Shown one piece after another: positions 251-20,684 of a stretch of DNA of 64,000 bases (its first letter is position 1; every line of letters begins with the position of its first letter). A program made the position numbers and the translations under genes. Source of the DNA: Gemmatimonadetes bacterium bin94 (GTDB taxonomy: Bacteria > Gemmatimonadota > Gemmatimonadetes > Longimicrobiales > Gaopeijiaceae); assembly GCA_002238865.1 (NCBI GenBank), contig MPNE01000002.1:1-64000 (forward strand), in the 5' to 3' direction. Below the pieces are notes generated by a model. That model had not been told where the DNA came from and made no database searches. It saw nothing but the letters and a program-made list of their open reading frames with translations.

Positions 251-1348
251 TTACTTGGAGTCGGACTGCGTCCATCCCAAGAGCAGTCGAACCACTGTAG
301 GCACGTCGGTTTCGGGGTTTCTACGTACGGCCAGGATGTGGCCGTCATGGGCCTTGAACCAAGGCTCATAAGCCTGGGTTCGCGTCTCAGCGATCAGCGT
401 GCCGTGGCCGTCTACGGTGGCCCGAGCCGGGTCGAACAGTTGCCAGATCGAATGTCCATCGTCCGTAGCGACCACAACGTTCAGGACCAATCCTCCACCG
501 ATCTGAAACACCCCACGAGATTGTGGGTAGGTGACATGGAAGGTGCGATACGGCACACCATCCTCAACCCCCTCCACGATGACTGCATCTCGCGGAGCGT
601 CTATCAGGTCCGGGAAGGCTGCGATTGGGCGTTCGCTCCAACCCTCGTTCGTCGGCACATAGTGGCTAATGCGGTGAGGAGCCCCTTCGGAGTACAGTAG
701 CGAGCCATCTGGTAGCGCGTGCAGCGCACCACCTGTTCCTACCATTCTGGCTTCCCAATCGTCGGCTTGAGCTGATTCGCCCCAACTGCGGAGAAACCTG
801 CCTTCGCGGCTGAACTGGTGGATAGCTGAATTGACTCCGACAACGCCCCCGCTGAGAACGAAATCACCAGAAGGAAGAATAGCAAACCCTTTGACCCATG
901 TCACGCGAAGCGGAAGGCGGATGCGGCGCACTGGGGCACCGGTAGGGGAGTACAACTCGATGCTACTACGACCAATATCATACACTGCGACATTGCCATC
1001 GGGATCAATCGCGATGATCGTCGTTGACGACACTTCCCCAGGTCCCTCCCCTGGTGCACCCACCACCGTTGCTTCGTCGGTCAGTGGGTTGTACCGTACC
1101 ACTCTCCCCCATCCTGGAAATGCGTCGGAAACCCAGATGGTTCCATTCTTGGCCTCGCCAAGGCCATCGATATAGGAGAACTCCCCGAGTTCTGAACTTC
1201 CGGCGTAGTCCCACACTTCTGTGACCGTCAGATGATGGGATAGTTCGTGCTCCTGGGCCGCGAGAAAGGGTATTCCGCCAGGAACCAAGGCAGATACCAC
1301 AAGCGCCAAGATCGGCATGCGTGCCGCAGACCCCATATCTTCCCCCAT
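251..1348 (-). CDS. Secreted six-bladed beta-propeller protein
   Basis: 365 residues. A hydrophobic signal segment ends near 'FLAAQE' at about residue 30. The body has NHL/TolB-like repeats: short strands with 'DGLGEAKNGTIWVSD', 'RVVRYNPLTD' and 'AIDPDGNVAVYD' patterns, and the family hallmark 'GAPGEGPGE' after blade two. It has no catalytic motif, so a binding or scaffold role outside the cytoplasm is the most that can be inferred. The gene lies 12 bp downstream of a cysteine-rich exported peptide gene on the same strand, and a hairpin terminator follows it. An alternative ATG at 1336 has a better GGGGGAAG ribosome site and would shorten the N-terminus by four residues. The ligand is unknown. 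Confidence 0.75.
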   Translation of the reverse strand: MGEDMGSAARMPILALVVSALVPGGIPFLAAQEHELSHHLTVTEVWDYAGSSELGEFSYIDGLGEAKNGTIWVSDAFPGWGRVVRYNPLTDEATVVGAPGEGPGEVSSTTIIAIDPDGNVAVYDIGRSSIELYSPTGAPVRRIRLPLRVTWVKGFAILPSGDFVLSGGVVGVNSAIHQFSREGRFLRSWGESAQADDWEARMVGTGGALHALPDGSLLYSEGAPHRISHYVPTNEGWSERPIAAFPDLIDAPRDAVIVEGVEDGVPYRTFHVTYPQSRGVFQIGGGLVLNVVVATDDGHSIWQLFDPARATVDGHGTLIAETRTQAYEPWFKAHDGHILAVRRNPETDVPTVVRLLLGWTQSDSK

Positions 1349-1360
1349 GTCTTGAGCGAA

Positions 1361-1828
1361 CTAGGCTTGTGGAGCCAGAATACTCTCGTTCATGACTTCG
1401 ATGTACTCATCGAACCGGTAGCGATACGCGTAGAATGCGAATTCAACCGGGCCCAATTTCACTGTCGCGCCACCGGCCATTTCCCGATAGGCCTCACTGA
1501 GCTCCCCGGCGTCATTGCAAGCCCATATCCCGAAGACATCTCCCGACAGTCTCACCGCCACCATGTCACCCTTAACGGTCGCAATGATTCGGCTATCCTC
1601 GGGTACGACATTAAGCGCAGCGGCCAAACCGCAACTACCGGTGGATGTTCGGCAGCAACCGCCTTGGAAACCGCAATACGCGCGCCCCGCCGAGCTGCTC
1701 GTACAGTTTCGGCAGCTAGTACAAATCGCGCATTCGCCTGGCGGTTGAGCGGTAGCATTGGCGGGGGACGTTGCGGCTGCGATCATCGCTGCTATGGCGA
1801 AGAGGGTAATGCGTGTCCAACGTCTCAT
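1361..1828 (-). CDS. Small exported cysteine-rich protein, first of three peptide/propeller pairs
   Basis: 155 residues. A signal peptide (basic 'MRRWTR', then a hydrophobic run, cleavage near 'ANATAQ') precedes a cysteine cluster with spacings such as CxxCxxCxxC and GCC at about residues 33-66. One further cysteine lies near 104. The rest is a non-repetitive soluble domain. The start is supported by a GGAGGT ribosome site six bases upstream. No family was recognised. The cysteines could form disulfides or bind metal; the sequence does not decide. The stop lies 12 bp before the start of the downstream propeller gene, so the two are very probably cotranscribed and act together. Confidence 0.7.
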   Translation of the reverse strand: MRRWTRITLFAIAAMIAAATSPANATAQPPGECAICTSCRNCTSSSAGRAYCGFQGGCCRTSTGSCGLAAALNVVPEDSRIIATVKGDMVAVRLSGDVFGIWACNDAGELSEAYREMAGGATVKLGPVEFAFYAYRYRFDEYIEVMNESILAPQA

Positions 1829-2040: not shown

Positions 2041-2355
2041 CTACCGAGAGGGGCGGCGGCAGCAGCCCCGATAGAGCCCACGGTCCAGCGTAGTCTTGAA
2101 CTCGTGACACGATTCACAGAGCAGGTGCAGGTTGTAGCAATCGTCGACACCGCCGACAGAAGCCGGTACCCTGTACTCCACCTCCCATCCGGCTTCACCC
2201 TCCTGATACTCTCGGACGCACCGTGACTTCCTGATCACCCCGACATATGCCTCGCGGGGATCGAAGACATGAGGGCAGCCATTCAACCGGCACTCACACC
2301 GACCCTGCGCCCGCAACATCACCTGCTCGATTGCGCGATCTGTCAGTTCGGTCAA
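2041..2355 (-). CDS. HNH-type nuclease-like protein with an altered first motif
   Basis: 104 residues. The C-terminal half follows the HNH layout: 'RVPASVGGVDDCYNLHLLC' followed by ESCHEFK, with a zinc-type pair CxxC at the end and CEC/C cysteines near residue 20. The usual DH dyad before 'xxPxxxGG' is replaced by 'EYR', so the general-base histidine is not where it is expected and catalysis is doubtful. The start is a TTG at 2355; the ATG at residue 13 is an alternative. It stands alone between possible IS scars and the peptide/propeller operon. It could be a stand-alone HNH protein or a decayed mobile-element nuclease. Confidence 0.6.
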   Translation of the reverse strand: MTELTDRAIEQVMLRAQGRCECRLNGCPHVFDPREAYVGVIRKSRCVREYQEGEAGWEVEYRVPASVGGVDDCYNLHLLCESCHEFKTTLDRGLYRGCCRRPSR

Positions 2356-2605: not shown

Positions 2606-3718
2606 CTATCTGACCAGCCTGGGGTTCAGCAGGCTGATGTACGGCACGCCCGCCTCGGTCTCCCGGTAGGAAACGATGTACCGAGATCCGTTGGCGAAGC
2701 CCCGCAAGTGTTCGTCGCGTTGCAGGCGCGCTATCGTGTGGCCGGTGGAGGGATCCAGCACGTCTACCCAGCCGTCCAACCATACCTGTGGCGGAGCGTC
2801 GTACAGGCCACCATCGTCGCTTCTCGGTACCATACGGTGTGTCCAGGCGGGATCGGGCGCCCGCCACACGACCCATAGTCCGCTGTCGTCGAGCATCACA
2901 CCGGTGTTGCCGGAGTTGGGGAAACGCCCCCTGTTCGTATGGTCCTTCTCGAACACCTCGACATCGCGCACAAACACGGATGCGACCCTCGGCTCGGGCT
3001 GCAGCTCCCAGCGGGTCACGACGTTGGCATACGTCCCCAGGGTCCAGAAGGTGTTGACCCCACCGGTCGCCAAGTCGAAGAAGTCGGACGATCGCCCGAC
3101 AGACACCGAGTCGGACCCGCCGAAGGATTCCATTTCGCCGGCCGGACCGAGCACATGGAACTTGTGTCCGATTGCATCCGGCGTTCCCACGTCGGCGTTG
3201 AAGATGACATCGCCCGACTTCGTGACGACCGCCGCCATGACCTGACCGCCGAACCGATCCCTGCGCACCACGTTGAAGTCGTAGTCCAGCACTGTGCGGC
3301 CGCCGTAGTCGAAAACGTGGATGAATCGCGGGCCGGGGCTGGTCATGGAGATGAACTGGTACTCGCCCGGGCCTTCCCCCGCGCGCCCGACCATCCGCAG
3401 GAACTCTCCGTCGGCGTCGAACACCGCGATCTCCGGCAGCCGGCGGTCTCCAACAAGGATGCGACCCCGCGCGTCAACAGCCACATGCGAAGCGGTGCTG
3501 ATCAGATGACGTCCCGGCCCGTCGAGTCCGCCGATCGTCACCACCGTGTCGAGGACGATCCGGCAATCCCGGCAAGTCACCTCCCCGGACACCAGCACCC
3601 GCTCCTGCGCGCTCGCGCTGCTCGCGATCGCCAGTGCCATCATGGCGGGCAGCAGGCGACAGGCACGTCGTTCGCCACGAGTGGTCCAGGACTCCGGGGA
3701 GGTGGCTCGTAAACTCAA
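2606..3718 (-). CDS. Secreted six-bladed beta-propeller protein with an N-terminal CxxC
   Basis: 370 residues. A long basic n-region (...GERRACR) precedes the hydrophobic stretch ending 'SSASAQ', a signal-peptidase-I type signal. The mature protein begins with a 'CRDC' motif, then propeller blades and the hallmark 'GRAGEGPGEYQF'. The TTG start at 3718 overlaps the stop of the upstream propeller gene (TTGA), so translation is probably coupled. The ATG at 'MMALAIASS' would leave too short a signal. No enzymatic residues are evident. The CxxC in a secreted protein fits the redox theme of this region, but its role is unknown. Confidence 0.72.
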   Translation of the reverse strand: MSLRATSPESWTTRGERRACRLLPAMMALAIASSASAQERVLVSGEVTCRDCRIVLDTVVTIGGLDGPGRHLISTASHVAVDARGRILVGDRRLPEIAVFDADGEFLRMVGRAGEGPGEYQFISMTSPGPRFIHVFDYGGRTVLDYDFNVVRRDRFGGQVMAAVVTKSGDVIFNADVGTPDAIGHKFHVLGPAGEMESFGGSDSVSVGRSSDFFDLATGGVNTFWTLGTYANVVTRWELQPEPRVASVFVRDVEVFEKDHTNRGRFPNSGNTGVMLDDSGLWVVWRAPDPAWTHRMVPRSDDGGLYDAPPQVWLDGWVDVLDPSTGHTIARLQRDEHLRGFANGSRYIVSYRETEAGVPYISLLNPRLVR

Positions 3719-4740
3719 GGTGATTTGCGCAATGCGGTTACAGTGTGGAAGAGCCGTGAATCGCTCACGGTAACAATGGTGCCATCGTTCCCGAACGTGA
3801 CACCGGTAGTTCTACCTGGGAACAGCACCGACCCGAGGTAGGCCCCCGTGTTTACGTCGTACTTGTCCATTACCCTGCCGCTGTTCTCGGTGGTCCCCCA
3901 ATAGAGAACGAACAGAGTGTCCTCCCGCACCGCCAGATCGGCAGTCGTGTGGATGGGCCTGTCCTTGTAGCTCGCTTGGGAACCGCGTTCCGTATTGGTA
4001 ACCGTGACCTCGGCGAACGGGACGCGCTCGATGTGGGGGTACCGCCCCTGAACGTCGGCGCCGTCAAATACGATCCATTCGCCTGCCGCGTCGAAGCTGT
4101 ACACCCACCGGTCCGTTCCCCGCACGGATATCGCCTGGCCGATAAGTTCCAGGAAGTGCTTCTCGGCGAATCCTTCCCATGGGGGATCGATCGTCTCCAA
4201 CAGGTCCCCTTCGTTCGACAGCAGGGCCCATGGACCACCATCCTGGTAGTATCCCTGGTAGGCCACCGCAAGATTGCCGTTGTCCAGGGCAGCAACCGCC
4301 GACGTGTATCCCACTTCCTGTGGCAGAGAGAACTCGCTGACCAGGCTTCCGTCGGGGCCGATTGTCACTATGCGACGGTTTGGGTTGTCGATGATGACTG
4401 CGTTTCCTTGGGCGTCCACATCCATTACACGCACCTCAAGCAGTTCGCCCGGACCCTGTCCCCTCCTTCCGTAGGACCAAACCAACTCCCCGACGGGATT
4501 CACATGGTGGAGCTTTGCGTTGCCTATGTCCGCAATGTACAGGCCGCCGCCAGGCGCGCTTCGTGGGGACCACAGGAATCCAAATGTGCTGTCGGCCTGT
4601 TCGCCCAGCGACCAAAGCGTGTCGAAGGATGCCGTCTCGAACACACGCTCGTCACCGAGCCCTCGGTCGTGAAGCTGATCGGCATCGTCGCTCTGACACG
4701 CGCCCAACGCAAAAGCGCCAAGGAGTAAGGGTCTGATCAC
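3715..4740 (-). CDS. Propeller lipoprotein
   Basis: 341 residues from a GTG at 4740, which gives a compact lipoprotein signal 'MIRPLLLGAFALGAC' with the lipidated cysteine at residue 15 and GAGGG just upstream. The frame stays open to 4830, so a longer protein is possible, but the extra segment overlaps a DNA element repeated near 6.6 kb and looks like leader. Beta-propeller repeats follow, with 'GRRGQGPGEL' as the family hallmark. It is probably anchored to a membrane facing the periplasm. The next propeller gene overlaps its stop by four bases. Function is unknown beyond likely ligand or protein binding. Confidence 0.72.
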   Translation of the reverse strand: MIRPLLLGAFALGACQSDDADQLHDRGLGDERVFETASFDTLWSLGEQADSTFGFLWSPRSAPGGGLYIADIGNAKLHHVNPVGELVWSYGRRGQGPGELLEVRVMDVDAQGNAVIIDNPNRRIVTIGPDGSLVSEFSLPQEVGYTSAVAALDNGNLAVAYQGYYQDGGPWALLSNEGDLLETIDPPWEGFAEKHFLELIGQAISVRGTDRWVYSFDAAGEWIVFDGADVQGRYPHIERVPFAEVTVTNTERGSQASYKDRPIHTTADLAVREDTLFVLYWGTTENSGRVMDKYDVNTGAYLGSVLFPGRTTGVTFGNDGTIVTVSDSRLFHTVTALRKSP

Positions 4741-4767
4741 GCGCCCTCGAAGGTGATGGTGGACCCT

Positions 4768-4800
4768 CGGGAAGGCGTATCCTCCCGGAAGGCCCCGCAA
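4768..4800 (-). repeat. 33-bp leader-like repeat, copy 1
   Basis: Matches 6584-6616 at 29 of 33 positions. Both copies sit on the 5' side of minus-strand coding units in this cluster, 28 bp upstream of the preferred propeller start in this case. On the minus strand it contains CCGGGAGGA, which resembles a ribosome-binding site. It may be a conserved leader or a duplication scar. Confidence 0.4.
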
Positions 4801-4953
4801 GCTAGGCCATCCGCCACGACTCGTCACCATGCCACGGGGAGAATTCTACGCCACTTGCCGCCGTAGGTCGCCGCCCGCGGCCATCCCCTCTCGGTGGGCG
4901 GCGGCTGCGAAGCTCCACCCACGCGCGGTCTTCGCCGCCGGGCCTACTCCCGC

Positions 4954-6093
4954 TCACTCCTCTCGCAACCGCAGCTTTGCGATCCGCCACGGGGGAAAAT
5001 CCATGTCCAGTAGCAGGTAGAGGAACCGACCGCCGCCGAGCACCCTCGACCCCGCTGGTAGCGGAACATCCTCGTAGAGTTTGGCGCCGGTGTGACGGTC
5101 GTAGACTTCGAGAGAGGAATGCAATGGGCGGAAGCGCGTTGGCCGCGTGTCGTCGAACCGAGCCTGCGTGAGGACAAGACGGGACCCGACAGCATCCACC
5201 CTGTCAATCACGTCGAAGCTGGCAAATAGATCCGACAAAGCAGTGTAGTCCCGAGGATCGGAGAAAGCACCCCGCTCCAAGACCGGTATTGGTCGGAAGG
5301 ACGCTGATGGCACCCCCATCGTGCCCACGGTATCCCCGCTGCCGTTCAGGATCGAAACCGGATACCTCAGACTGGACATTACGAAAACCGAATCGCCCGC
5401 GACGGCCATGGGAAACCTCACGTAAGAGCCCCAATATGGCCTCTCGATCTGGACGAACGGAAACTGGTATGAGCTCCATGCCACCGCACCGCCCGTCAGC
5501 CGATGAACCAACGCCGGACGCCTCAAGAGCCGAGAAAAGCCCTCGTCGCCGTCTGTGATCTGCATATGCAAGACGAGATCCGCATTCATTGACTGGACGT
5601 TGTAGGGAACTCCGGGCAAAGACACTTGCCTGTCCGGCTGTAGGTCCTGGGTGAGGTATGTCAATCCTTGAAGCCGACGGTCAACCACTATTGCTTGACC
5701 GGAAGGGCCCTCCGCCACGCCATCGATTCGGCGGAACTCGAACGGACCTTCGCCGAACCGACCAAACGCCGCTTCCAGCCGCCCGTCCTCGGCGTAGCTG
5801 CGCACTCGTGGGAGCAATCGGTCGGCAACCAAGAAGCCGCCGTTCGCCCGCTCTGCAAAGGCCCCAATCTCCGCGATGGAGTCGGCTGCGTCTTCTTCCA
5901 ATTCAAGGACGACCTCAACGGAGAAGACATCATCGAGCGTCGCTTGGCCAGCCGGTGGCGATCGCACCGGCGATTCCCCGCAAGACGCCACCGCTAGTCC
6001 CGCCGCAAGTAGCCCCACCGTCAGGAAGGCGACACTCCGAATTCGGATCGACGCAGAACCGGGGCGCCACCCCGAAGCGGGTCCAAACGCCAT
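4954..6093 (-). CDS. Propeller lipoprotein paired with a cysteine-rich peptide
   Basis: 379 residues from the ATG at 6093. The signal (basic 'RIRSVAF', then 'LTVGLLAAGLAVASC') has a lipobox cysteine near residue 40. The propeller body carries the variant hallmark 'GRFGEGPFEFRR' and blade motifs such as 'GGFLVADRLLPRVRSY'. The frame is open further upstream, but 6093 is chosen because it starts one base after the stop of the cysteine-rich peptide gene (6095), a spacing typical of translational coupling. It probably faces the periplasm as a lipid-anchored binding or scaffold protein. Its partner may be the peptide encoded immediately before it. Confidence 0.75.
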   Translation of the reverse strand: MAFGPASGWRPGSASIRIRSVAFLTVGLLAAGLAVASCGESPVRSPPAGQATLDDVFSVEVVLELEEDAADSIAEIGAFAERANGGFLVADRLLPRVRSYAEDGRLEAAFGRFGEGPFEFRRIDGVAEGPSGQAIVVDRRLQGLTYLTQDLQPDRQVSLPGVPYNVQSMNADLVLHMQITDGDEGFSRLLRRPALVHRLTGGAVAWSSYQFPFVQIERPYWGSYVRFPMAVAGDSVFVMSSLRYPVSILNGSGDTVGTMGVPSASFRPIPVLERGAFSDPRDYTALSDLFASFDVIDRVDAVGSRLVLTQARFDDTRPTRFRPLHSSLEVYDRHTGAKLYEDVPLPAGSRVLGGGRFLYLLLDMDFPPWRIAKLRLREE

Positions 6094-6094
6094 C

Positions 6095-6325
6095 CTAGTT
6101 GGAGATCCCCTCGAGGCAGCAGTGCTCCCATTCAGTGTAGCAGACGTCACCCTCGCAGGAGCCCTGGTATACGTGAGCCAGCGAGACACAGGTCTCGATC
6201 CCCTCGATGCATGTCTCGGTCTGCCCCATCACCGGTGTTGCCTTCACCGTGGTGTAGGCCATCGTTACGATGCACGCCAAGATGAGTGTGGTCGCCAAGC
6301 GGATGACTTGTGTGATCCGGTCCAT
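6095..6325 (-). CDS. Small exported cysteine-rich peptide, second pair
   Basis: 76 residues. The start at 6325 is set by an excellent GAGGAGG ribosome site seven bases upstream. A signal peptide (hydrophobic 'LATTLILACIVTMAYTTV', cleavage near 'VMGQ') leaves a mature peptide of about 42 residues with six cysteines at 39, 46, 57, 62, 69 and 70, including a terminal CC. The even number suggests three disulfides or a metal site. The gene ends one base before the start codon of the propeller lipoprotein gene, so the two are tightly coupled. No known family was recognised. The closest analogy in arrangement is the Bacteroidetes habit of placing small exported peptides next to propeller proteins. 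Confidence 0.72.
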   Translation of the reverse strand: MDRITQVIRLATTLILACIVTMAYTTVKATPVMGQTETCIEGIETCVSLAHVYQGSCEGDVCYTEWEHCCLEGISN

Positions 6326-6712: not shown

Positions 6713-7744
6713 TCAAGGGTCGTTGACACCCAGCCCTTCGACTTCGACCAGCTGGATTCCGTCGATCGTGTCCTCGTCCCAAACCAGTAGCCTGCCGGGC
6801 GCGTGTTCATCGAACACAGCGCTCACCCCCGGATACCCCGTCAGCTGCCAGGCCTGCTGGAGCACGCCTCTCGAGTCGTAGCGCTCGATGGACCGAAGAT
6901 TCTCGCCCCTCACCCTCACCACCAACCCACCAATGGCCAGGAACCCCTGCCCGGCAAGAGGCAGGAAATCCTGCATCGTGGTGAGATTGAATGCCTGGAG
7001 TCCAAAAGGAGGACCGAGATCAATGCGTACGGCCTCTTCGAGCATGTCCACCAGGTCATCGTGGACACAGCGCTGGACGATCTCTTGCGGCTGCGTACCC
7101 AACCTCCAGATGGCAGACGGCCCGGTAAACGCCATGTGGTTTGCCCGCAGCCGGGGCGTCGCGTGAGATCCGGAGCCACGGCTCTCGGGAAGACCGAAGT
7201 CGTCGCGAGTGTTCAACGTGCGTACCCGGCCGTCCCGCGTGACTTCGTGAACCGTAGCCTCATTCGTCGCGACCAATATTCTGTCGTCCGCAACAATCGC
7301 ATGCGTTGGCCGCTCGGACATTGCAAGACGGTGCTCGTTTTCGCCGGGGCCGAACACGATCAGGGAAGGCGGATTTCCGTCGACGACCACCACATTGGCG
7401 GAGTCCAGGCGCCCCAGGCCCACAGGGTTCTCGTACTCCAGTGGGCCAGGACCTTCCCTGCCCCAGCCACCGACTCTCCGAAGGTCCTGGTCCAGCTCCA
7501 GGACCTGCCGCTCATACCTGTCGTAAACAAGCCAGCCGCCGGACGTCCGGGCAACCTGACCCGGGTAGACTTCCGTGTTGTACGCAACTACGCGGACGGC
7601 CAGGTCCGATCGATCGAGATCGCAAGCGTCCGTGTACTTCGCCGGGATGGTCACGGAGAGGTCCTGGGCGCTCGCCACCCAGGTACTCGCAACGACTGCC
7701 GCAAGAGCGACGACGCCGATCTGGAAGGGTCGTGTCAATATCAT
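6713..7744 (-). CDS. Secreted six-bladed beta-propeller protein
   Basis: 343 residues. The signal peptide 'MILTRPFQIGVVALAAVVA...SAQ' fits cleavage by signal peptidase I near residue 27. Blades include 'GGWLVYDRYERQVLELDQD' and the variant hallmark 'GREGPGPLEYEN'. The ATG at 7744 has AAAGGAAG about nine bases upstream. It starts 21 bp after the MerR-like regulator gene on the same strand, so the two may be cotranscribed. It has no active-site motif; it is a likely periplasmic or surface binding protein of unknown partner. Confidence 0.72.
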   Translation of the reverse strand: MILTRPFQIGVVALAAVVASTWVASAQDLSVTIPAKYTDACDLDRSDLAVRVVAYNTEVYPGQVARTSGGWLVYDRYERQVLELDQDLRRVGGWGREGPGPLEYENPVGLGRLDSANVVVVDGNPPSLIVFGPGENEHRLAMSERPTHAIVADDRILVATNEATVHEVTRDGRVRTLNTRDDFGLPESRGSGSHATPRLRANHMAFTGPSAIWRLGTQPQEIVQRCVHDDLVDMLEEAVRIDLGPPFGLQAFNLTTMQDFLPLAGQGFLAIGGLVVRVRGENLRSIERYDSRGVLQQAWQLTGYPGVSAVFDEHAPGRLLVWDEDTIDGIQLVEVEGLGVNDP

Positions 7745-9854: not shown

Positions 9855-11154
9855 TTGGGAGTGTCCTTGAGGGGTTGCCTCGCCCTCGCGATCACCGCAC
9901 TCGCGGGATGCGTTTCCGAGAACGCGACGCCTCCCCAATCCCGGTCGGTCACTCAGCGAGATAGTGCGGCAATCCGGATCGTGGAAAACACCGCGCCTGC
10001 CTGGGAAGCGGATCAGGGCTGGCGGATAGAGCCGATTCCGGAAGTTGCCGTGGGATCGAGGGCGATCGTGGGTGGCCGGGACGAGATCGCGCTTCAACGC
10101 GTGCGGGGTGCCCGATTCCTCTCCGATGGTCGAATCGTCGTCGCGGACGCAGGTTCCCGCGAAGTGATGATATTCGACACCGCCGGCAGGCTTGTCAGGC
10201 GCTTCGGCGGTAGAGGGCAAGGGCCGGGCGAACTCCAGTCGGTCGTCGGGCTTCACATATGCGGGGGCGACTCCATAGCCGTGGTCGATTCGCGCCAGGC
10301 GCTCCACCTCTTCGACGGCGACGGGACATTCGCGCGCCGGGCACGGTTTCGACTGGGCGAGCGGTCCGCGTCGCTGCAAGGAGTCTCGGCCAGCTGCCGC
10401 CGAGCGTTGCTACAACAGCGCACCCGGCAGCCCTCCCTTGATCGCCTCGGCCTTACCGAGGACGTCTTTGCGTGGGTCGACCCGTTCTCCGACGCCGTCG
10501 ACACGGTGACGACAGCCGAGCTGCTCGAGGCGTGTGATCCGCAGTCTCGACGGGGCCGCGCGTGCCTGGGTCATCCCCTGGGGCACCTCTTCCCGCACGC
10601 TCGCGACAGGAAACGATCAGCTGGTGCTGGGGAACGGGCGAATCCCCGAGTTCCGGCGGTACGATTCCGCGGGCAGACTCCAGATGATTGTTCGCTGGGC
10701 CAGGGCACCCCGGCCGGTCGACGCGGGGGATCGGCAACGCTATTCCGAGTTCCGTTCGGAGTTTCTCGCCTGGGCGCCCGACGAGCAGGAAACCCGGCTG
10801 CTGTTTCCGGCCCTCGACGAATACCCGGAGGTCCCGGCACACAAGCCGCTCTTCGACCGGATTCTGCTGGATGACCGGGGAGGGATCTGGGCGCGCGTCT
10901 TTTCCGGGGAGTCCTTCGGCCTCTTCGACTCGCGCCTCCGGGACGCCCCGGTCTTCACCGAGGCCTGGACGGTGTTCGACTCGGCCGGGGTCTGGCTGGG
11001 CGATCTCACCTTGCCGGAGCGGTTTGTGCTTCACGCCGTCGGCAGGGATCGGCTTCTCGGCGTATCGAGAGACTCCTTCGACACGGAAGCGGTTCAGGTG
11101 CTGCGGATCGAGGCTCTGCCCCCCTTGCCCCCTACCCCCGGCGTGCTACGATAG
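9855..11154 (+). pseudogene. Propeller lipoprotein gene interrupted by a frameshift
   Basis: Starts at a TTG with GGAGGAG upstream and encodes a lipoprotein signal ending 'LAITALAGC'. It continues with the 'RDSAAIRIVEN' N-terminus and 'GGRGQGPGELQS' hallmark of the propeller family seen elsewhere in the window. The first frame is good to about 10530 ('TVTTAELLEA'), and the family sequence continues in the next frame ('ARAWVIPWG...ATGNDQLVLGNG') to the stop at 11154. Frame 2 has a stop at 10507-10509, so the break lies between about 10510 and 10545. An extra G in the GG at 10529-10530 would explain it. Corrected length is about 432 residues. It is either a recent pseudogene or a sequence error. 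Confidence 0.7.
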
Positions 11155-14453: not shown

Positions 14454-16271
14454 TCATTTCTGCACTGGCGCGGGACGAAGCTGGCTGACCACAGCTCTTG
14501 GGACATCGAATTCGTCCAGTTCGCTCACCAACACGAAATCCCCACGGGCATCAAGCAATCTGTCCCTTGCCTTCAGCCTTGCCGTGAAGAGCGGTTTCGC
14601 CCGCTCGATGTCCCAAACGCGCCACGTCACGCTGTCTTGATCGGGAAATCGGTAGTCGCGCACCCAGAGTCGTTCGTCAAAGTCTGTCAGCACGGAGTCG
14701 ATCGCGGGGGCAGTTTCGTTTTGCGGCCATTCATCAATCGGGAAGGGGGTGACATCTTCAATGTCGCCCATTGATTCTTCGCCCCAAACACCACTTTCGA
14801 CGAGCTTGCTCATGGCCTCTGCCATCCTCGACGGTACTGCGGCCTTGGACTCGCGCGCTACGCGCACCTGGGCTGCGGACGGTCGCACGGCTGTCGGCAT
14901 GGGAATGCGGATGACCTCCTTGCCGCTCCAGTCGAACACCCCAATTGAATCCAGATCGGTCTCGGCGATGACAAAATGGTCTGAGGTTCCCGCAGCCAAG
15001 GTCCAATGCCCGAAGATCACACCGCCGCTATAACGCTCTCCATAGTACAATTCGTTTCCCTTGGCCTCCGCAACGACTTGAAGACCATCTTCGCCAATCG
15101 CCGCAACATACTGAACCGATTCCCAGGTTCGCCCTCGGTAGCCGCTCTCACTGGATTCCCGGTCACCGAACACGATGCTGCCGTCCGGATGAACGGCCAC
15201 CGGGGCCACGCCCATCGGGTTGTTGAACGGGATGGCATGATGGCGCAGGGCATGCAGGAACTCGCCGTCGTGGTCGAGGAACACCACGCGCCGCCGCAGT
15301 ATGTCCCAGAGTGCGAGGCCCCGCGGGGTGCGCAACGCACGCGCGATGCGGCGGAACTCCCGGGGCCCGGCACCCTCCCTGCCGAATACCCTGGTCTCCC
15401 CGGACAAAGGGTCCACGAAGAGAACTTCGGTTTGTTCCACCAGGGCGAACCCGGTGCCGGGAAGGAAGAACCCGGCCACGACCACAGACAGCTCAGAGAG
15501 ATTCGGATTGTCCGAGGAGTCGAAGGTCGATTCCGCGAGAGTACGGAGTGGGGCCTGTGCACTCGGCTGGGGAGGCTCAATGCGGCGTCCGCCATTGGCT
15601 CGGAAAGCTCGCTCCGCAGTCCCCATGGCATCTGTCAGTCCCGGCGCGCCTGGATGCAAGCCGCTACTCGATACAAAGGTAGGGGTGCCGAGAATCTGCA
15701 GGGCACCCGCCAGCTCTACATCTCGTGCGAGGCGATTCCGGGTTGCGTCTTCGTTCATACAGTCGGGGAAAGACTCCGAATCGGCTATCCCCAGGCTCTT
15801 TCCAAACCGAACCCAGTCTCGTTCGCTTAGCCATGTCTGGTCGGAAATCAGCGCCTCGTGCGCTTCAGGGAAGCGGTTGTACCCTTCAGCGCAAATCGCT
15901 GCAAGCGCCGCTTCGGTCGCGCCCGAACCGCTTCGGTTCGAGGGAACATGACGGACGACTACAGAGACACCCTCACCACGGGTCGCTTCCAGCACAGCAG
16001 GTGCGACCTCTTGGCACACCTGACAGTCGTAGTCCACAAATTCGACTATGACAGCGCGACCGGAGGAAGGCATGAACTCTCCAAGACGACTCGGAGCGCT
16101 CACCAAATCGTCCCAGTGCCGTGAAACCCGGCGCTGCTCGTTCCATCCACTGTATACCGCGCCGATCCCTCGCACCACCGGACCTGACGGACCAAACAGC
16201 AGAATTGCGAGCGTTACGATAATCGCGACGTTGACAGCCCGGTTCCACCTGTCGCTCTTGTTAGTGCTCAT
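14454..16271 (-). CDS. DsbA/thioredoxin-like domain fused to a six-bladed propeller
   Basis: 605 residues. One N-terminal membrane anchor (residues 13-27) places the rest outside the cytoplasm. Residues 60-235 form a DsbA-type thioredoxin fold: 'VIVEFVDYDCQVCQ' with the redox pair Cys83/Cys86, a helical insert, and the cis-proline motif 'GTPTFV' at 195-200. From about 250 a six-bladed propeller follows, with the variant hallmark 'GREGAGPREFRR'. DsbA-like domains oxidise or isomerise disulfides; here the propeller may choose the substrate. A gene for a six-cysteine exported peptide ends 27 bp upstream, an obvious candidate substrate. No partner DsbB/DsbD-type gene is visible. Confidence 0.8.
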   Translation of the reverse strand: MSTNKSDRWNRAVNVAIIVTLAILLFGPSGPVVRGIGAVYSGWNEQRRVSRHWDDLVSAPSRLGEFMPSSGRAVIVEFVDYDCQVCQEVAPAVLEATRGEGVSVVVRHVPSNRSGSGATEAALAAICAEGYNRFPEAHEALISDQTWLSERDWVRFGKSLGIADSESFPDCMNEDATRNRLARDVELAGALQILGTPTFVSSSGLHPGAPGLTDAMGTAERAFRANGGRRIEPPQPSAQAPLRTLAESTFDSSDNPNLSELSVVVAGFFLPGTGFALVEQTEVLFVDPLSGETRVFGREGAGPREFRRIARALRTPRGLALWDILRRRVVFLDHDGEFLHALRHHAIPFNNPMGVAPVAVHPDGSIVFGDRESSESGYRGRTWESVQYVAAIGEDGLQVVAEAKGNELYYGERYSGGVIFGHWTLAAGTSDHFVIAETDLDSIGVFDWSGKEVIRIPMPTAVRPSAAQVRVARESKAAVPSRMAEAMSKLVESGVWGEESMGDIEDVTPFPIDEWPQNETAPAIDSVLTDFDERLWVRDYRFPDQDSVTWRVWDIERAKPLFTARLKARDRLLDARGDFVLVSELDEFDVPRAVVSQLRPAPVQK

Positions 16272-16298
16272 GCGCCAGCAATTCGCCGATGACGGCGA

Positions 16299-16499
16299 TC
16301 AGAAGCAGACAACCCCGACCCCCATCGGGTGACCAACCGGGCACGTCCTGGTGACGCAGCCGCTATCCTCCACACAAGTCACGCAACCACTCGTGTGGGT
16401 CAGGCAGTTTGGCTGGGGTTCCTGTGCCCTGACGGACTCGGCTTCGATCGAAAGCACAGCGATCAGAAGCAAGCCAAGAAGCTGGAGAAAGCGTCGCAT
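16299..16499 (-). CDS. Small exported cysteine-rich peptide, third pair
   Basis: 66 residues. The signal peptide 'MRRFLQLLGLLLIAVLSIEA' ends near 'VRAQ'. The mature peptide of about 40 residues has six cysteines at 32, 39, 42, 48, 53 and 65, with one CxxC, and ends at 'VVCF'. The ATG at 16499 has a weak AAGGGA site. It lies 27 bp upstream of the DsbA-like/propeller fusion on the same strand. The cysteine spacing differs from the other two peptides in the window, so the shared features are size, export and gene position rather than close sequence similarity. Function is unknown. Confidence 0.65.
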   Translation of the reverse strand: MRRFLQLLGLLLIAVLSIEAESVRAQEPQPNCLTHTSGCVTCVEDSGCVTRTCPVGHPMGVGVVCF

Positions 16500-20016: not shown

Positions 20017-20020
20017 CACC

Positions 20021-20272
20021 ATGAAAGAGATCACCGCCAAAGACGCGAAGAACGGCTTCGGCCGCTTACTCGATGTCATCCAGACCACACCTGTGCGCGT
20101 CACCCGGAACGGCAGACCGGTCGGCGTGGTGATGTCGGTACGTCAATTCGAGCGCCTTCGCGGTGCTGCCTGGGAGCAACTTGCAAACACGATGGATGCT
20201 CTGGGCCAAGAGGCGACCGCCAAGGGCCTCACCGACGCCGAGCTGGAGTCGCTCTTGGCCGATGAGAGCTGA
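20021..20272 (+). CDS. Phd/YefM-type antitoxin
   Basis: 83 residues. The N-terminal 'MKEITAKDAKNGFGRLLD', 'VIQTTPVRVTRNGRPVGVVM' and 'SVRQFERLR' follow the Phd/YefM fold, whose N-terminus dimerises and binds DNA. The C-terminal tail (about residues 50-83) would wrap the toxin. The gene overlaps the PIN toxin gene by 11 bp, the normal arrangement for coupled antitoxin/toxin production. A palindrome immediately upstream is the likely operator. It is a proteolytically unstable repressor in known systems. Confidence 0.88.
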   Translation: MKEITAKDAKNGFGRLLDVIQTTPVRVTRNGRPVGVVMSVRQFERLRGAAWEQLANTMDALGQEATAKGLTDAELESLLADES

Positions 20273-20684
20273 TCGCGTCGTCCTTGATACGAACGTCCTG
20301 ATCAGCGCAGCACTGCGGCCAACAGGTCCGCCCCGGGAGGCGCTCGATGTAGTGCGGTATGGAAATGGAATCCTGCTGTTTTCCCGAGAGTCTTTTGACG
20401 AGCTTCGAAGCCGTCTTCTCCGCCCTAAGTTCGATGCTTACGTGGGGTGGGAGGGCAGAATCGTGTACATGGCTCAGCTGACGGCAGTGTCGGAATGGGT
20501 TTCCATAGCGGGTGCCAAGTTGGGATGCCGCGATCCGGACGACGACATGATCCTCGAGACCGCACTCATGGGCGAGGCGGACTGCCTGATCACCGGGGAC
20601 GGCGATCTTCTGGAAATGTCCTCGTTCTGCGGCATTCCGATAGTAACCCCGGCGGGTTTCCTCGACCTCTCGACGGGCCGATAG
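20262..20684 (+). CDS. PIN-domain toxin (COG1569-like)
   Basis: 140 residues from the ATG at 20262. It opens with 'RVVLDTNVLISAAL' (first acidic residue Asp9), has a mid acidic residue in 'RDPDDDMILETAL', and ends the catalytic core with 'ADCLITGDGDLLEM'. These are the acidic clusters that bind Mg in PIN ribonucleases. The size and pairing with a Phd-type antitoxin match the PIN toxins of COG1569 rather than classical VapC with VapB. The probable target is RNA; the actual substrate is unknown. Confidence 0.88.
   Translation: MRADRVVLDTNVLISAALRPTGPPREALDVVRYGNGILLFSRESFDELRSRLLRPKFDAYVGWEGRIVYMAQLTAVSEWVSIAGAKLGCRDPDDDMILETALMGEADCLITGDGDLLEMSSFCGIPIVTPAGFLDLSTGR

Follow-up and report, generated by a model that had tools for sequence, protein, structure and literature searches.

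Small exported cysteine-rich peptides encoded beside propeller genes in a Gemmatimonadota genome: probable members of a module with its own DsbA-like enzyme

Why would a bacterium place genes for small, exported, cysteine-rich peptides directly in front of genes for secreted propeller proteins? The question is raised by a 64,000-nucleotide stretch of DNA (the window) from Gemmatimonadetes bacterium bin94, in which a sequence-only reading had pointed out three such pairs and had offered a peptide/receptor or a peptide/modifier system as the explanation. The three pairs are present as described, with matching open reading frames, strands and gaps. The signal sequences of the three small ORFs are of the Sec type and were called by a simple heuristic. 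The features of the window that concern us are the following.

251-1348, minus strand: a 365-aa propeller protein paired with peptide 1, with a signal-peptide-like N-terminus (propeller HMM E=1.8e-39).
1361-1828, minus strand: peptide 1, a 155-aa exported protein with a cysteine-rich N-terminal part and a small alpha/beta C-terminal domain.
2606-3718 and 3715-4830, minus strand: two more propeller genes with a 4-bp overlap, in a same-strand cluster with peptides 1 and 2.
4954-6093, minus strand: a 379-aa propeller protein paired with peptide 2, with an N-terminal lipobox-like VASC (propeller HMM E=1.7e-34).
6095-6325, minus strand: peptide 2, a 76-aa exported precursor with a mature part of about 40 aa and six cysteines, the last two adjacent (CC).
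6713-7744, minus strand: a fifth propeller gene (343 aa), which heads the cluster and has no cysteine-rich ORF upstream (propeller HMM E=6e-19).
14454-16271, minus strand: partner of peptide 3, with a transmembrane helix at residues 6-26, a DsbA-like domain at about 70-225 and a six-bladed NHL-type propeller at about 242-600.
16299-16499, minus strand: peptide 3, a 66-aa exported precursor with a mature part of about 40 aa and six cysteines in the spacing C-C-xx-C-C-C-C, without an adjacent pair.

The gap to the propeller gene is 12 bp for peptide 1 (to 251-1348), 1 bp for peptide 2 (to 4954-6093, ATG at 6093) and 27 bp for peptide 3 (to 14454-16271). The cysteine counts also agree with the sequence-only reading: peptides 2 and 3 have six each, and peptide 1 has a CxxCxxCxxC cluster, which reads CAICTSCRNC and belongs to a total of nine mature cysteines. 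The AF2 model of peptide 1 is confident for residues of about 70-150 only, and a fold search with this model, which is of low confidence in the cysteine-rich half, gave nothing under E 0.6. Searches of solved structures with peptides 1 and 3 returned non-significant matches to unrelated proteins only. Among the three peptides the coding score is highest for peptide 2. In front of peptide 3 no clear sigma-70-like promoter is seen, a result that is not informative in such GC-rich DNA. Between propeller 2606-3718 and peptide 1 there is a putative 104-aa Cys/His-rich ORF (2041-2355, minus strand) that is HNH-nuclease-like.

The partner of peptide 3 had been described as a propeller protein. A propeller is indeed present, but the protein is not a plain propeller, since a transmembrane anchor and a DsbA-like domain precede it. 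The protein matches Pfam Thioredoxin_4 at E=6e-11 and DSBA at 1.8e-6. It has the active-site features CQVC and a cis-Pro at T196-P197, and both the CxxC and the TP dipeptide are invariant in 8 orthologs. In the AF2 model (pLDDT 81) the Dsb half was matched by Foldseek/VIA-align to ScsC/DsbA proteins, including DsbA2, with Z 20-22, and the propeller half to NHL domains with Z 15-18. By fold, CxxC and cis-Pro, the N-terminal half of 14454-16271 is a DsbA-like thioredoxin-fold enzyme. It may be an oxidase; its sequence and fold would also suit a reductase or an isomerase. The window propellers are NHL/DUF5128-type six-bladed beta-propellers by profile and fold; 2606-3718 (DUF5128 E=8.8e-10) is the only one of the propellers tested that is over the DUF5128 cut-off. 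There is no Dsb gene near the peptide 1 and peptide 2 loci of the window.

How much does a propeller gene say about the presence of a peptide? The genome has 4.4 Mb in 83 contigs and 88 DUF5128 matches. A profile that takes the propellers of the window as its seed recovers all the partners and finds about 98-101 propeller genes in the genome and about 12 in the window. Such a number of DUF5128/NHL-type propellers, about 100 in one 4.4-Mb genome, is an unusually large paralog family. In statistics covering about 0.5 Mb of stretches around propellers in this genome, plus relatives, a cysteine-rich exported ORF was found directly upstream of 8 of 101 propellers versus 3 of 206 other genes (p=0.007, this genome). 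Under a looser rule the same test gave 9/98 versus 8/224, which is not significant (p=0.055). The notion that propellers mark cysteine-rich peptides is only weakly true in this genome, as about 90% of its propellers have no such ORF upstream. Because peptide-bearing propellers are a minority, propeller gene order alone is a weak signal here. Further examples of peptides from this genome are found at L077 (4428-4871), L083 (4322-4597), L106 (3610-3843), L108 (4390-4653) and L122 (5941-6162), and at L084 (5220-5540) a Dsb gene sits between the peptide and the propeller.

Two other observations were made on the plus strand of the window. The propeller gene at 9855-11154 lies in two overlapping frames (9855-10874 and 10534-11154) and is thus frameshifted, being either a pseudogene or the product of an assembly error. 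At about 20020-20684 a PIN-domain-like ORF follows a Phd-like antitoxin ORF, and by eye the two are probably a toxin-antitoxin pair.

The case that the pairing is beyond chance rests more on conservation in relatives than on enrichment in this genome, and it is convincing. Relatives of peptide 3 are encoded directly upstream of orthologous DsbA-propeller genes in several congeners, with the signal kept and the mature part about 30-40% identical. Relatives of the fusion were obtained by an alignment-based scan of genome contigs; among the named carriers are MAGs of Gemmatimonadota and a single Candidatus Palauibacter denitrificans. Orthologs of peptide 1 were found in four other genomes, in each of which the peptide is upstream of an orthologous propeller gene that it abuts or overlaps. 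Conservation in relatives is thus seen for peptides 1 and 3 but not for peptide 2, which has no sequence relative among 23 genomes of the genus and stays an isolated case. It had also been claimed that gene order is conserved although the peptides share little sequence. This is right, and it reaches far beyond the window, to Dsb-linked loci in relatives.

The arrangement found in relatives is a module of a Sec-exported cysteine-rich peptide, a DsbA and a propeller, in which the Dsb and propeller parts are fused or separate and gene order varies. Dsb loci of the genus were gathered by similarity to the fusion, blind to peptides, and 46 of them had enough flank. A cysteine-rich exported ORF is present within 1.5 kb on the same strand at 36 of these 46 loci versus 14 of 214 background genes (p=1e-23), and a propeller is present at 42 of them. 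Outside the genus, in several families of the class, a search with the Dsb profile A4 found a peptide at 29 of 39 Dsb loci and a propeller at 19, a rate that is somewhat favored because A4 was built from module members. The separate Dsb proteins conserve the catalytic motif. Housekeeping-type Dsb loci (L217, L218, L222, L223) have lower scores and no peptides, and Dsb relatives in other phyla (L149-L166) had no convincing peptide and propeller neighbors in the part checked. The carrier group consists of little-known bacteria related to sponge-living Gemmatimonadota. Of the two possibilities offered for the pairs, the peptide/modifier one is directly supported, because a DsbA-like oxidoreductase, which the sequence-only reading had missed, is fused to the propeller or encoded beside it.

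Variations on this arrangement have been observed. Many loci of one sister family have, in place of the propeller, an Oar-like protein of 1200 residues with a CarboxypepD_reg domain and an outer-membrane barrel. Both CarboxypepD_reg and OMP_b-brl_4 are over the cut-off at L237, L238, L242, L244 and L251, beside peptide and Dsb; at L239 the barrel is over the cut-off and CarboxypepD_reg just under it. No Plug domain was matched in these proteins at E 0.01 (three proteins) or at E 0.001 (four more). Small exported PDZ-domain proteins of 146-166 aa are encoded beside peptide and Dsb at L241, L246, L247 and L251 of the sister family. In another genome (G001) two near-identical peptide-Dsb-propeller loci, L127 and L128, have transposase-like genes close by, a duplication that suggests a mobile module. 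A conserved family of exported peptides with the pattern CC..YCC..CC is encoded near a thioredoxin-like gene (L077 6131-6349, L125 10295-10525, L131 8829-9047, L170 3436-3627); in L077 and L170 the next gene encodes a membrane protein of about 275 aa, which Pfam does not assign to any family with confidence.

What kind of peptides are these? The linked peptides number 77 distinct sequences, a few of them probably spurious ORFs (e.g. L179 4107-4532 and L246 5920-6195), with a median of 78 residues, 4-10 mature cysteines and about 20 cysteine frameworks, and they fall into about 49 families by mature sequence. With a median net charge of -5 they differ from cationic antimicrobial peptides. The mature cysteine count is even in 71 of the 77 (92%) versus 23 of 31 spurious ORFs in a small control set (p=0.02), and among ORFs with at least 5 cysteines in 63/69 peptides versus 14/22 controls (p=0.004); in the window, peptide 1 has an odd count. 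The 13 peptides scanned matched no family in Pfam or NCBIfam. Tandem copies of peptides occur at L130, L167, L177, L245 and L253. A knottin-like C-C-CC-C-C spacing, which the window peptides do not have, is present in L108, L125 and L195 (with the last cysteine shifted in L195). Toxin profiles matched the knottin-spaced peptides at E 0.27-0.7 only, and the best solved-structure match of L108, a scorpion cystine-knot peptide, is non-significant (E=0.18). The exported peptide of L108 lies between two propeller genes.

Signal peptides are conserved and mature parts are hypervariable. In the G004/Plut pair, for example, identity is 79% in the signal, 30% in the mature part and 81% in the partner. 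In the duplicated G001 locus the mature part has 7 non-synonymous changes and 1 synonymous change, and the Dsb has 9 and 8. Omega is 0.2-0.5 for the partners, which is purifying selection, and 0.2-1.8 for the mature parts; these values rest on few sites. Omega is below 1 in most pairs, a sign of coding selection on the small ORFs; it would be premature to speak of positive selection on the mature parts.

It is fairly probable, in our judgment, that the window holds members of a Gemmatimonadota module that makes and handles small secreted disulfide-rich peptides by means of dedicated oxidative folding. The peptide would be exported by Sec, as its signal sequence suggests. A periplasmic, membrane-anchored DsbA-like enzyme, often fused to a propeller or encoded beside one, would then pair its cysteines; the conserved CxxC and cis-Pro, the genetic linkage and the mostly even cysteine numbers all point to this step. 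The secreted or anchored propeller may bind the peptide and either hold it for oxidation or display it, a partnership suggested by the linkage and by the natural Dsb-propeller fusion. In related loci an Oar-like barrel would stand in for the propeller, and this replacement suggests that the folded peptide ends up outside the cell. Finally, as is visible in the comparisons, the mature part diverges fast with the signal, cysteines and partners kept. A hypervariable mature part fits an outward-acting product, and the least certain step is that the product may have targets outside the cell that change over time, for example competitors, kin or a host. A wider reading is more tentative. It is possible that the module is a phylum-wide arsenal or recognition system of hypervariable, Sec-exported disulfide miniproteins, each with its own DsbA and propeller, that diversify like animal toxins or defensins (leader conserved, cysteines fixed, core changing) and that may serve Gemmatimonadota living with sponges as weapons against competitors or in dealings with the host.

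Other explanations have to be weighed against dedicated folding. With about 100 propellers, GC-rich DNA with many spurious ORFs and an own-genome test that is weak alone, the peptides could be chance ORFs beside a very large gene family. This is extremely improbable, as orthologs occur at the same position in many species with leaders and cysteines conserved, dN/dS is below 1 in most pairs, and the Dsb linkage is found at 36/46 loci. The conserved orthologs refute the chance reading for peptides 1 and 3, and not for peptide 2, which has no relative. The same three types of parts are also present in mau clusters, where MauA, MauB and MauD of methylamine dehydrogenase are a small cysteine-rich exported subunit, a propeller protein and a thioredoxin-like maturation factor. 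Could the loci encode a two-subunit enzyme of the methylamine or quinohemoprotein amine dehydrogenase type, with the propeller as large subunit, a cysteine-rich cofactor subunit and a thioredoxin-like maturation protein? One CC-type peptide has a match to the gamma subunit of the quinohemoprotein enzyme, but at E=0.047 it falls far short of the family cut-off. However, the peptides are hypervariable and have no conserved Trp, the propeller best matches six-bladed NHL-type proteins, and the loci read showed no heme or dehydrogenase subunit, which makes such an enzyme very unlikely. As a general reading a tryptophylquinone enzyme is excluded, because 25 of the 77 mature peptides contain no Trp, and with Trp missing from a third of the peptides there is no general tryptophylquinone cofactor; peptide 3 has no Trp either.

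A role in metal handling would make the peptide a cysteine-rich metal-binding or metallophore-like molecule whose thiols are protected or reduced by the Dsb/ScsC-like enzyme, as in copper-stress proteins. In structure the Dsb domain comes closest to ScsC (suppressor of copper sensitivity protein C), a metallophore could be taken up through TonB-type barrels, and the CxxCxxCxxC of peptide 1 would suit metal binding. The mostly even cysteine numbers and many spacings fit disulfides better, though, a metal site would not usually lie in a hypervariable core, and the loci read contained no metal gene that was noticed; we consider this role quite improbable. It has also been considered that the peptide is a hormone, an intercellular signal, and the propeller its cognate, co-diversifying receptor. 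The genes are adjacent and co-conserved, the propellers are exported, one with a lipobox-like N-terminus, and in several pairs they diversify somewhat faster than the Dsb. Yet a propeller fused to a DsbA suggests that the peptide is processed and not sensed, outside the genus about half of the loci have no propeller, and no recurring signal-transduction gene is seen in the loci read, so that a hormone and receptor pair is unlikely.

No description of a module of peptide, Dsb and propeller was found in the literature searched, and the words propeller and cysteine are absent from the Palauibacterales genome paper. The module matters because it is repeated and carries dozens of unrelated peptide families within a single phylum that has received little study. 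Should the products prove to be secreted disulfide miniproteins, they would be a large untapped natural library with a folding enzyme beside each sequence. The module also suggests a testable role for part of a very large family of propellers, and it hints that TonB-type barrels could be connected with the secretion of peptides.

How does the module compare with known systems? NVEALA loci of Bacteroidetes have a small exported peptide beside a DUF5128-like six-bladed propeller. The likeness lies in this neighborhood, but the cysteine patterns are different here and a DsbA-like enzyme is linked. As a matter of family membership the comparison fails, since neither the three window peptides nor ten others have a Pfam NVEALA match at E up to 1; no mention of NVEALA was found in the PMC literature searched. 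In Myxococcus the protease PopC is secreted only if the TonB-dependent transporter Oar, a protein with a CarboxypepD_reg domain, is present (PMC6434023). The sister-family proteins share the N-terminal CarboxypepD_reg domain and the outer-membrane barrel and are encoded beside peptide and Dsb, but no such gene is linked in the window, and the peptide is a putative cargo. Sponges have cystine-knot peptides, the stryphnines and asteropsins, of which the stryphnines are animal-encoded (PMC13418204). L108, L125 and L195 share the spacing C-C-CC-C-C with them, a likeness at the level of the framework only.

Parallels to the proposed oxidative folding are found in glycocins and EntV. In glycocin clusters (sublancin with BdbB), too, a thiol-disulfide oxidoreductase is linked to a small cysteine-containing peptide that is secreted. 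Those peptides carry sugar and exit through a dedicated ABC exporter, whereas the peptides here have a Sec signal and a propeller or an outer-membrane barrel. No glycosyltransferase, ABC exporter or immunity gene stood out in the locus gene listings, in which a minority of the neighbors had a family-library scan. EntV of Enterococcus faecalis is a Sec-exported peptide that needs a DsbA-catalyzed disulfide for its activity (PMC6606811). Both systems would have an exported peptide that relies on DsbA, a reliance that linkage suggests in the present case. However, entV and dsbA are unlinked core genes, whereas in the module the Dsb is joined to a propeller by linkage or fusion, and its hypervariable peptides have 4-10 cysteines. 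DsbA-dependent exported peptides such as EntV and the glycocins are known singly, and what appears to be new here is a repeated genomic module with a proposed function.
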